Shown here one piece after another: positions 5,306 to 33,446 of a DNA stretch of 33,446 nt. The stretch is from Alphaproteobacteria bacterium (GTDB lineage Bacteria > Pseudomonadota > Alphaproteobacteria > UBA6615). Location: NCBI GenBank assembly GCA_003230015.1, contig QIGO01000185.1, forward strand, positions 1 through 33,446. The letters are read 5' to 3'. The position numbers and the translations under genes were made by a program. The notes beneath the pieces were generated by a model. It did no database searches. It saw only the letters and a program-made list of their open reading frames with translations, and was not told the origin of the DNA. Position 1 is the stretch's first letter. The number at the start of each line of letters is the position of its first letter.

Positions 5306-5382
5306 TGGTCGGGACGCCCGGATTCGAACCGGGGACCTCCACCTCCCCATGGTGGCGCGCTACCAGGCTGCGCTACGCCCCG
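5306..5382 (-). tRNA. tRNA-Pro (anticodon GGG)
   Basis: Read on the minus strand, 77 bases fold as a complete tRNA: acceptor CGGGGCG pairing with CGTCCCG (one G-U), D-stem GCGC/GCGC, anticodon stem CCACC/GGTGG with loop ATGGGGA, and T-arm CCCGG-TTCGAAT-CCGGG. Bases 34-36 are GGG after U33, so it reads the proline codon CCC. Discriminator A and the 3' CCA are encoded. Several ORF-track entries over this region are therefore spurious. It stands between the SIMPL gene and the GntR regulator. Confidence 0.97.
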
Positions 5383-15293: not shown

Positions 15294-15728
15294 ATGCGGT
15301 GGTCGGGCCGGATTCGTCTCATTGCCCTCGCTTTCACCTTTGCCGTGGCGGCATGCTCGCCCACCCTCGACAGCCGCGGCTTCGTCGCCAACGAAGACGC
15401 CCTGGCGTCCCTGGAGCCCGGCCAGAACAGCCGAACCGACGTCTCGCAGGCCCTGGGTACGCCATCGACACAAGGTACCTTCGGCAACGATACCTGGTAT
15501 TATATGAGCGAACGCACGGAGACCGTGGCGTTCCTCCGCCCCAAAGTGATCGAGCGCAAGATCATTGCCATCACATTCGATCAAGCCGATCTCATAGAGG
15601 ATATCTTCATCTACACCGAAGCCGACGGTCAGCCGGTCAAATTGGTTAGCCGTGTGACACCCACCGCCGGCAACGAATTCACCTTGATTCAGCAGATATT
15701 CGGCAATCTCGGACGCTTCAACAACTAG
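15294..15728 (+). CDS. bamE: Outer membrane protein assembly lipoprotein BamE (SmpA/OmlA family)
   Basis: This 144-residue lipoprotein component of the BAM complex, which inserts beta-barrels into the outer membrane, has a short signal sequence with lipobox VAA-C (Cys21). The SmpA/OmlA core follows: LASLEPGQNSRTDVSQALGTPS, then TWYYMSERTETVAFLRPKV. The C-terminal FGNLGRFNN is usual in alphaproteobacteria, so the protein is full length. Its TAG stop coincides with the CTAG target duplication of a MITE-like element that begins at the next base, so the insertion just spared the coding sequence. Confidence 0.93.
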   Translation: MRWSGRIRLIALAFTFAVAACSPTLDSRGFVANEDALASLEPGQNSRTDVSQALGTPSTQGTFGNDTWYYMSERTETVAFLRPKVIERKIIAITFDQADLIEDIFIYTEADGQPVKLVSRVTPTAGNEFTLIQQIFGNLGRFNN

Positions 15729-15892
15729 CAGGCTGCTGAAGAAGTCTGGCGGGAATCAAAATGAAGACAAATTTCGCAGCAATAGGAGTAGATTTGTTCG
15801 CATATCGGGAATATGCGATCAAATGTACGACGCATTGATGCGGGAATTGGATCATTTTGATTCCCGTCACGACTTTTTCAGCAGCCTGCTAG
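15725..15892. mobile_element. 160-bp palindromic MITE-like element with CTAG target duplication
   Basis: The element (15729-15888) is bounded by CTAG at 15725-15728 and 15889-15892. Its ends are inverted repeats, CAGGCTGCTGAAGAAGTC against GACTTTTTCAGCAGCCTG (one mismatch). Further in, GGGAATCAAAATGA pairs with TCATTTTGATTCCC, and the centre pairs CGCATAT with ATATGCG around CGGGA, so the whole unit is one long imperfect hairpin. It has no coding capacity. Four-base CTAG duplications are known for some IS5/IS1182-like transposases, which is inferred as the mobilising source; no such transposase is in the window. Confidence 0.85.
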
Positions 15893-15927
15893 CCGCCAAG
15901 GCCGCACCCGGTCGCGGCCTTGGCGGC
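15892..15927. terminator. Strong bidirectional hairpin between bamE and hppA
   Basis: GCCGCCAAGGCCGC and GCGGCCTTGGCGGC form a perfect 14-bp stem with an eight-base loop. It lies eight bases after the hppA stop on the minus strand and, before the MITE insertion, would have begun immediately at the bamE stop. No T-run follows on either strand, so it may end transcription inefficiently or work with Rho, or simply protect 3' ends. Confidence 0.65.
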
Positions 15928-15934
15928 CTGGCTC

Positions 15935-18040
15935 TTACGCCAGCGCGGCCAGCAGCAGCAGCGCCACGATATTCGTAATCTTGATCATCGGGTTCACGGC
16001 CGGTCCGGCGGTGTCTTTGTAGGGATCGCCGACCGTATCGCCGGTAATCGCCGCATGGTGGGCATCCGAACCCTTACCGCCATGATGGCCATCCTCGATA
16101 TATTTCTTCGCATTGTCCCAGGCGCCACCGCCGGCGGTCATCGAGATCGCCATGAACAGGCCGGTAACAATAACCCCCAGCAACATCGCACCCACGGCCG
16201 AGAAAGCCGCCGAACGGTCGGCGATCACCAGCACCACCCCGTAAACCACCAACGGCGCCAGCACCGGCAGCAATGACGGCACCACCATCTCGCGGATCGC
16301 CGCACGGGTCAGCAGGTCGACCAGCCGGCCGTAATCCGGCTTGGCGGTGCCTTCCATGATGCCCGGGATCTCCTTGAACTGCCGCCTCACCTCCACCACC
16401 ACCGATCCGGCCGCCCGGCCGACCGCGGTCATGCTCAGCGCGCTGAATAGATAGGGCAGCAGACCGCCAATCAGCAAACCGACCACGACATAGGGATTTT
16501 CCAGCGAGAAATCCAGTGTCACATCGGCGAAATACGGATGCTCCTCCGGGTTGCTGATGAAGAGATTGAGATCCGACGTATAGGCGGAAAACAGCACCAG
16601 CGCGCCCAGGCCCGCCGACCCGATTGCATAACCCTTGGTGACAGCTTTTGTCGTGTTGCCAACGGCGTCGAGCGCATCGGTGGTCTTGCGCACCGACTCC
16701 TCGAGATCGGCCATCTCGGCGATGCCGCCCGCATTGTCGGTCACCGGCCCGTAGGCGTCCAGTGCCACGACCATGCCCGCCAACGCCAACATTGCGGTGA
16801 CGGCGATAGCAATGCCGAACAGCCCCGCCAGCGAGAAGGAAATGATGATCGCCGCGCAAATTATGATCGCCGGCACCGCCGTCGCCTCCATGGAGATCGC
16901 CAGGCCCTGGATGACGTTGGTGCCATGCCCCGTTGTCGAGGCCTGCGCGATCGACCGCACCGGCCGATAGTCCGTGCCGGTGTAATACTCGGTCACCCAG
17001 ATGATCAGCCCCGTGACCACCAAGCCGACGACCGCGGAAAAGAACAGCGACAATCCCGTAAAGCTTTTATCGCCGACGGTTAATTCCGTGCCGAACCCGA
17101 CGATCCACGCGGTGACGATGGCAATACCCACCAGTGATATCAGGGCCGAAACGATGAAGCCCTTATACAGGGCGCCCATGATGTTCTGGCTGTCGCCCAG
17201 TTTGACGAAGAATGTGCCGATCACCGAGGCAATGATGCAAACCGCACCGATGGTCAGCGGGTAGGCCATCATCGACCCGACCACCGCCGACCCGGCAAAG
17301 AAGATCGATGCCAGCACCATGGTCGCGACCACCGTCACCGCATAGGTTTCGAACAGATCGGCGGCCATCCCGGCGCAATCGCCGACATTATCGCCGACAT
17401 TATCGGCGATAACCGCCGGGTTGCGCGGATCATCCTCGGGAATGCCGGCTTCGACCTTACCCACCAGATCGGCCCCCACATCCGCGCCCTTGGTAAAGAT
17501 GCCGCCCCCCAGCCGTGCGAAAATCGAAATCAGCGACGCGCCGAAACCCAGTGCCACCAGCGGGTCGATCAAATCGCGTCCCACGGCCCCCGAAACGAGC
17601 AGGTACCCGTAATAGCCGGTCACCGCCAGCAATGCCAACCCGGCCACCAGCATGCCGGTGACGGCACCGGCACGGAACGCCACGCTCAGCCCTTCTGCCA
17701 AGCCCTTCCGCGCCGCTTCTGCCGTGCGTACATTGGCCCGCACCGAGACCATCATGCCGGAATACCCGGCCGCCCCCGACAGCACCGCACCGATGAGGAA
17801 ACCCACGGCTACCTTTAGCCCAAACACCAGAAAAAGGATCACCGCCACGACCACGCCGACAACGGCGATCGTCGTATATTGCCGATTCAGATAGGCTTTT
17901 GCGCCTTCTTGCACGGCAGCGGCGATTTCCTGCATACGCTCGTTGCCGGCACTGGCGGCAACGGTGACGCGGGCGGCCCAGATCGCATAAAGCAGCGCCA
18001 AAATTCCACAGGCAAGCGCAAACCAGAGTGGTCCTGACAT
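15935..18040 (-). CDS. hppA: K+-independent membrane-bound proton-translocating pyrophosphatase
   Basis: This 701-residue integral membrane protein has about 16 hydrophobic segments. It hydrolyses PPi and pumps H+ outward. The substrate-site signature [21 protein letters not shown], followed by [18 protein letters not shown], is intact, as are the C-terminal [18 protein letters not shown] residues. The segment [10 protein letters not shown] has Lys where K+-dependent enzymes have Ala, which marks the K+-independent class, as in Rhodospirillum rubrum. The ATG at 18040 is preferred over the track's TTG one codon earlier; AAGGGAAG lies upstream. It converges with bamE and is divergent from the cyclase gene. 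Confidence 0.96.
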
Positions 18041-18372
18041 CAATAATTCTTCCCTTTGGTAGCCAAACTAGCGAGATTCAGTTGGAAGCCCATGGCACGG
18101 GCACCCGCGACTCTGCGGCGGTTGCTGGAAAGCGCCGGGAACATGCCAAAAAGGCACGCCATTGGCAACCGCTCAGGTACGAACCGCCAGGGGAATCGCA
18201 TTAGGGAAAAGAGCTTGCCTTGAGTGAAGGTCCGGTTGCTGTCCCCAACTTCCTGAGATCTCGCGGCGAGGCGACCCTCGAGCGCTGACTTCTCTCCAGT
18301 AAGCCGCGCCGATGGATCGCGCGGATCAAACACGATAGGCTTGACCGCGCTCTGCGTATCTGTGAGGCGAAT
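18041..18372. other. Intergenic region between hppA and cyclase gene
   Basis: This 332-bp region lies between divergent genes. It must contain the hppA promoter, but I could not assign hexamers convincingly. A minus-strand ORF across it (18040-18459) has no recognisable protein character and overlaps the cyclase start, so it is not annotated. No repeats were noticed. Confidence 0.4.
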
Positions 18373-33355: not shown

Positions 33356-33426
33356 CTAGAGCTTTTTCCATTCAAACGGATTCGTTTGAACGATAAGAAA
33401 ATGCGTTAAAACAACAAGCTAGAGCA
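33356..33426. repeat. Palindromic intergenic block, probably dispersed repeat
   Basis: TTCAAACG-GATT-CGTTTGAA (33371-33390) is a perfect 8-bp stem with a four-base loop. It is embedded in an AT-rich block flanked by direct copies of CTAGAGC (33356-33362 and 33419-33425). Very similar TTCAAACG/CGTTTGAA blocks ending in AGAGCA recur between genes in alphaproteobacterial genomes (recalled, not searched). It lies upstream of rpiB and could also affect its transcription. Confidence 0.6.
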
Positions 33427-33446
33427 CATGAAGTGAGCGCAAGCGA

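Follow-up and report, generated by a model that had tools for sequence, protein, structure and literature searches.

The insertion sequence IS5 of E. coli duplicates a four-base target of the form YTAR, chiefly CTAG, an under-represented tetranucleotide (15 of 24 cases in ISfinder as quoted in PMC5493358). MITEPsy1 of Pseudomonas syringae pv. phaseolicola, a short element that was trapped moving, duplicates CTAG or YTAA (PMC3189936). The element described here lies in a window of 33,446 nucleotides on one contig of an alphaproteobacterial genome assembly. Like MITEPsy1, it is short and gene-less, has 18-nt terminal repeats containing ...CTGAAAAAG, and has a target duplication of four nucleotides (CTAG or YTAA in MITEPsy1), and MITEPsy1 is likewise thought to derive from a full insertion sequence, ISPsy2; unlike it, MITEPsy1 has 100 nt and other outer repeat bases, and it was trapped experimentally in a coding target (PMC3189936). 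With E. coli IS5 the element has in common the 4-bp YTAR duplication with CTAG as the most frequent target (PMC5493358), but IS5 is a full IS and also uses CTAA, TTAG and others. The same or similar ends, CAGG...GAARAAG, are found in a group of ISAzs10-like IS5 elements (ISAzs10 of Azospirillum sp. B510 and IS of Methylobacterium and of the genomes G304, G024, G102 and G089), which also have YTAR-type flanks and whose transposase is a DDE enzyme of NCBIfam IS5_4, but these IS measure 1.3-1.5 kb including a transposase gene, whereas the present element is gene-less, and beyond the ends no similarity was seen. A further comparison is offered by the IS1182 family with IS1272 (PMC5678879), the N-terminal transposase profile of which is related to that of the IS with the ends in question. 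The element is of a known kind, an IS5-family MITE that inserts at CTAG, and its enrichment at stop codons is modest. The reading that we favour, with a probability of roughly 0.93, is that an ISAzs10-like IS5 transposase inserts the MITE at CTAG, that insertions in genes are lost, and that those which remain are concentrated at stop codons and between genes.

The MITE proper is a near-palindrome of 160 bp at positions 15729-15888, flanked by CTAG at 15725-15728 and at 15889-15892, which are the two copies of the target duplication by comparison with the flanks of other copies and with the empty and filled sites treated below. The left terminal inverted repeat CAGGCTGCTGAAGAAGTC (15729-15746, forward strand), which recurs at the ends of full IS elements, differs by one mismatch from the right one, CAGGCTGCTGAAAAAGTC when reverse-complemented (15871-15888, reverse strand). 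The preliminary description of this DNA had already given the 160 bp, the 18-bp ends with one mismatch and the CTAG on both sides, all of which was confirmed; it had also placed the element one base after the bamE stop and called the interior fully palindromic, and here the location at the stop and the palindromic nature hold, but the first base of the element directly follows the TAG at 15726-15728, and the interior is a quasi-palindrome with only 78% identity to its own reverse complement. The ORF list contains no ORF of at least 80 aa within the element. Its strand folds with -104.6 kcal/mol, compared to a mean of -41.3 for shuffled sequences (z = -16.9), and as the sequence is multi-copy, a chance origin is ruled out. 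An Rfam scan of the whole window gave no match at the element, the sole match being a tRNA at 5309-5382, and a structured non-coding RNA was rejected on these grounds and because the limited covariation of the copies is explicable by arm-to-arm copying.

The ORF on the 5' side of the element (15294-15728, forward strand, 144 aa) matches the Pfam BamE family (PF04355, E = 5e-16) and thus is bamE, the gene of the outer membrane assembly factor BamE, which was detected in 23 of 24 genomes searched, the own genome counted. Its TAG stop at 15726-15728 lies inside the left CTAG, the C of which is the third base of the preceding AAC codon, so that the earlier view of a stop supplied by the CTAG and of a gene left intact is well founded. 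On the other side, a convergent ORF on the reverse strand (15935-18043) has its 3' end 42 bp beyond the right CTAG; it is putatively an hppA-type gene (membrane pyrophosphatase), and among 14 relatives inspected, 12 have a homologue of it downstream of bamE. A GC-rich hairpin at 15893-15926 (-29.7 kcal/mol, z -4.3) is probably the original intergenic hairpin of bamE and hppA, now parted from bamE by the insertion; as it has no T tract, it was rejected as a standard intrinsic terminator.

Mobility of the element is indicated by its copies and by sites that lack it. With the 168-bp query, about 20 places were matched in the own genome (G000), an assembly of 244 contigs that is 74.6% complete and breaks at repeats. 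Full copies are mostly 85-96% identical, half copies stop at contig breaks in the centre of the palindrome, and apart from decay at single bases, nearly all copies have CTAG on either side; the target duplication of the copies tallied is CTAG, rarely CTAA or TTAG. In the window as a whole, CTAG occurs 27 times, compared to about 116 times expected from base composition, and is thus some fourfold scarcer. A search of plasmids for MITE copies found none.

The own genome also contains a second repeat family, family B, of 107 bp (CTAGAGC...GCTCTAG, more than 30 matches), which has an internal CTAG. Empty family-B sites read ...CAACAAG-CTAG-AGCA..., with at least six copies continuing through the CTAG, and a filled copy reads ...CAACAAG-CTAG-MITE-CTAG-AGCACATGG..., split over the contigs C33 and C181, whose joining we infer. 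Family B thus serves as a target for the 160-bp family; it also extends to the window's right end (33356-33446; L068-L097) and often sits at stop codons itself. Among 23 genomes of the same family, none has a copy of the element, it is absent from the bamE 3' ends of all 14 relatives inspected, and in one of them (G002, locus L240) the bamE stop is an uninterrupted CTAG, the relatives with an orthologous bamE site belonging to other genera. Far from being a single-copy sequence present in all relatives without an empty CTAG site, the element is therefore multi-copy and absent from the relatives. Replacement of a stem-loop target in the manner of IS1272, which replaces inverted-repeat targets without target duplication (PMC5678879), was rejected, as here CTAG is duplicated, being kept on both sides and present once in the empty site, and no target is lost. 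That CTAG belongs to the element, which would then have 164-168 bp and insert elsewhere, is highly improbable: all well-kept copies and IS do have CTAG at either end, but the empty family-B sites and the bamE site of G002 carry their own CTAG, the TAG serves as the in-frame stop of the gene in the stop-codon cases, and adjoining elements have one common CTAG (L127, L055). With a length below 500 bp, no transposase gene, terminal repeats, about 20 dispersed copies with CTAG flanks, an empty site (its filled counterpart lying on two contigs) and the ends of an autonomous element, the sequence deserves the name MITE that had been tentatively given to it.

The autonomous element was found in other genomes. 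If one mismatch at most is allowed, the 22-bp end occurs in 12 of 385 genomes of the same class, and in four same-class genomes a full IS lies between two such ends, each with CTAG at both ends: L127 (779-2293, 1515 bp), L128 (619-1953, 1335 bp), L131 (264-1798, 1535 bp) and L142 (116-1622, 1507 bp). The transposases of these four have 364-386 aa and score 233-279 bits with the NCBIfam model transpos_IS5_4 (cut-off 140), and the one tested against Pfam contains DUF772 and DDE_Tnp_1. An assignment to the IS1182 family was rejected, as with 187-203 bits the transposases remain below the 270-bit cut-off of that model and the best stretch is N-terminal. Plasmid records of Alphaproteobacteria hold relatives that are annotated as IS5 family, including ISAzs10 of Azospirillum, with ends that adjoin TTAG, and the IS end TTAGCAGGCTGCTGAAGAAGTCTGGCG of Methylobacterium bullatum equals the left end of the MITE over 26 bases after the first base. 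MITEs of 156-181 bp whose ends agree but whose cores differ are found in G248 (dozens of matches), G138, G145, G102 and G259, those of G248, G138 and G145 having palindromic cores unrelated to that of the window MITE, and the shared ends thereby tie palindromic repeats of about 160 bp with differing cores, from several genomes of the class, to one group of IS5-type transposases. A scan of contigs with a 25-base end, which probably was too specific, found only one Sediminimonas MAG, and a literature search for the end sequence and for ISAzs10 found nothing. With an IS5-type DDE transposase in elements with these ends and a 4-bp YTAR duplication, the element is, judged from its sequence, a non-autonomous IS5-family MITE with CTAG target duplication, a kind already known. 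A full IS with the same ends, which the preliminary description had proposed to look for, thus exists in the four genomes and is absent from the own assembly, where one protein query and one family model revealed neither a full parent IS nor an intact transposase that matches, and only two short fragments of the transposase family below the cut-off. The parent IS appears to have been lost, or to be missing in the incomplete assembly.

The mobilization may be envisaged as follows. The enzyme would be a DDE transposase from the ISAzs10-like group of IS5 elements, stemming from the full IS that is lost or missing here. It would recognise the 18- to 22-bp ends and join them to a target cut in a staggered manner at CTAG, a palindromic tetranucleotide, which would result in the 4-bp target duplication. 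As CTAG holds TAG on both strands, an insertion at a CTAG stop would keep the stop whole on both sides, whichever strand the gene is on; the bamE site would have read AACAACTAGCCGCC before the insertion. Insertions at a CTAG within genes would be purged by selection, and survivors would thus gather at stop codons and in intergenic DNA. The case illustrates by what means a mobile element whose target has four bases can maintain itself in a genome dense with genes, this target being scarce in genes and stops being restored on both sides.

The copies of the own genome also decay. Relics of 24 bp, which read CTAG-CAGGCTGCTGAAGAAGTCTG-CTAG, number five or six and lie at C1:36216 and C57:13442 (each with one change), C10:10821, C14:19703, C48:8774 (left flank TTAG) and, in tandem with a full end, C41:87-114, the last of which resembles the 25-bp tandem duplication at the left end of IS1272L (PMC5678879). 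The relics retain the left 20 bases and the CTAGs and have one recurrent junction, at which CTG is common to the left arm and the right end, and this junction would suit a slippage deletion across the hairpin; in eleven other genomes, the pattern used found no such relics. The tip of the palindrome is missing in the copies L007, L010 and L016, and in L016 the right CTAG has become CCAG, which leaves an adjoining minus-strand ORF without its TAG stop. GATTCCC, which lengthens the stem, is peculiar to the window copy, the other copies having GAGCCC in its place. The pair 79/93 at the tip is C-G in five copies and A-T in four, and the pair 12/167 changes from C-G to G-C in one copy, but the covariation term of the copy alignment is overall unfavourable (+2.27), and template switching from arm to arm would account for covariation in the arms of a palindrome.

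These features bear on the question whether the repeats might be kept for a hairpin function at 3' ends (transcript end protection, termination or RNase III processing), similar to REP elements, with mobility being secondary. The very strong hairpin, the compensatory changes between the arms at several positions and the location of half of the copies directly after a stop codon would fit such a role, but arm-to-arm copying in hairpin replication yields the same pattern as the compensatory changes, whose overall term is unfavourable as stated, the copies lose their tips and shrink to 24-bp relics, the relatives do without the element, and the other half of the copies is away from gene ends. A hairpin function is thus an improbable reason for the persistence of the repeats, and they are better understood as the surviving insertions of a CTAG-specific MITE.

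The preliminary description had considered CTAG stops as a preferred safe target. With genes called by a purpose-written codon-usage ORF caller and no standard gene finder, CTAG is the stop of a flanking gene at 11 of 22 sites of the own genome (full, half and relic), while its 442 other CTAGs, in 823 kb, comprise 213 in genes, 164 in intergenic DNA and 65 at stops, the stops thus making up 65 of 229 (28%) of the non-coding background. For the MITE of G248 with its unrelated core, stops are found at 13 of 30 sites, compared to 22 of 104 non-coding CTAGs (21%). The first tally, pooled from both genomes, gave an odds ratio of 2.7 (p = 0.0007), but it joined flanks with an artificial CTAG, and truncated family-B copies could create false stops. 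A strict recount with real flanking bases and equal flank lengths for sites and background gave an odds ratio of 2.5-2.8 with a one-sided p of 0.004-0.005 (0.05-0.44 for single sets), a smaller excess that is still there, and all these p-values are indicative, as the tests were designed post hoc and two half copies may belong to a single insertion as its paired ends. There are no clear gene interruptions by the MITE family, compared to 46-48% of background CTAGs inside genes, and the only case scored as coding in the recount (L008) lies about 22 bp 5' of an ATG that is preceded by GAGGA. Roughly every second site is a different intergenic CTAG; one of these lies within another repeat and one about 22 bp before a start codon, and a stop codon is therefore not a needed target.

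The excess at stops can be understood because CTAG is the target, insertions in genes or near promoters are lost, and stops are restored on both sides. Most of it is probably due to CTAG specificity, to the scarcity of CTAG in genes and to purifying selection, and recognition of stop codons is not needed. It would alternatively be conceivable that the transposition machinery has a genuine preference for stop-codon CTAGs, guided for example by local DNA structure, the topology at transcription ends or nearby hairpins, as an evolved safe harbour. The 2- to 3-fold excess in two genomes with unrelated MITE cores agrees with this, and family B in the same genome leans likewise, albeit weakly, but the excess is modest and, in the strict recount, has a p of about 0.005 in the pool and of 0.05-0.44 in single sets, and most intergenic CTAGs of the background precede a gene (at a median of 96 bp from the start), where insertions are costlier, so that selection suffices. 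MITEPsy1 and IS5 moreover enter coding genes when this is selected for. A true preference hence seems unlikely to us, and the part of the earlier claim that stands is the excess itself, which selection explains equally well. The broader idea that CTAG-targeting IS5-type MITEs prefer CTAG stops, so that a tetranucleotide seldom found in genes would offer harmless places to land throughout the genome, with the stop kept on both strands, is just as doubtful. We know of no mechanism for a stop-codon preference.

Some minor observations concern the relatives with the same ends. In L127 (627-2293), a full IS directly adjoins a MITE of its own type, with one CTAG in common. In L131, L127 and L142, the transposase gene is followed, before the IS end, by a second ORF of about 105-115 aa; these ORFs are mutually similar, the two tested had no significant Pfam match, and the ORF is a possible passenger gene. 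The MITE cores of G248, G138 and G145 (L130, L129 and L134), CCTTCGAGACG...CCTCAGGATGAGG, are alike across these genomes and look like a common palindrome that was captured between these ends.
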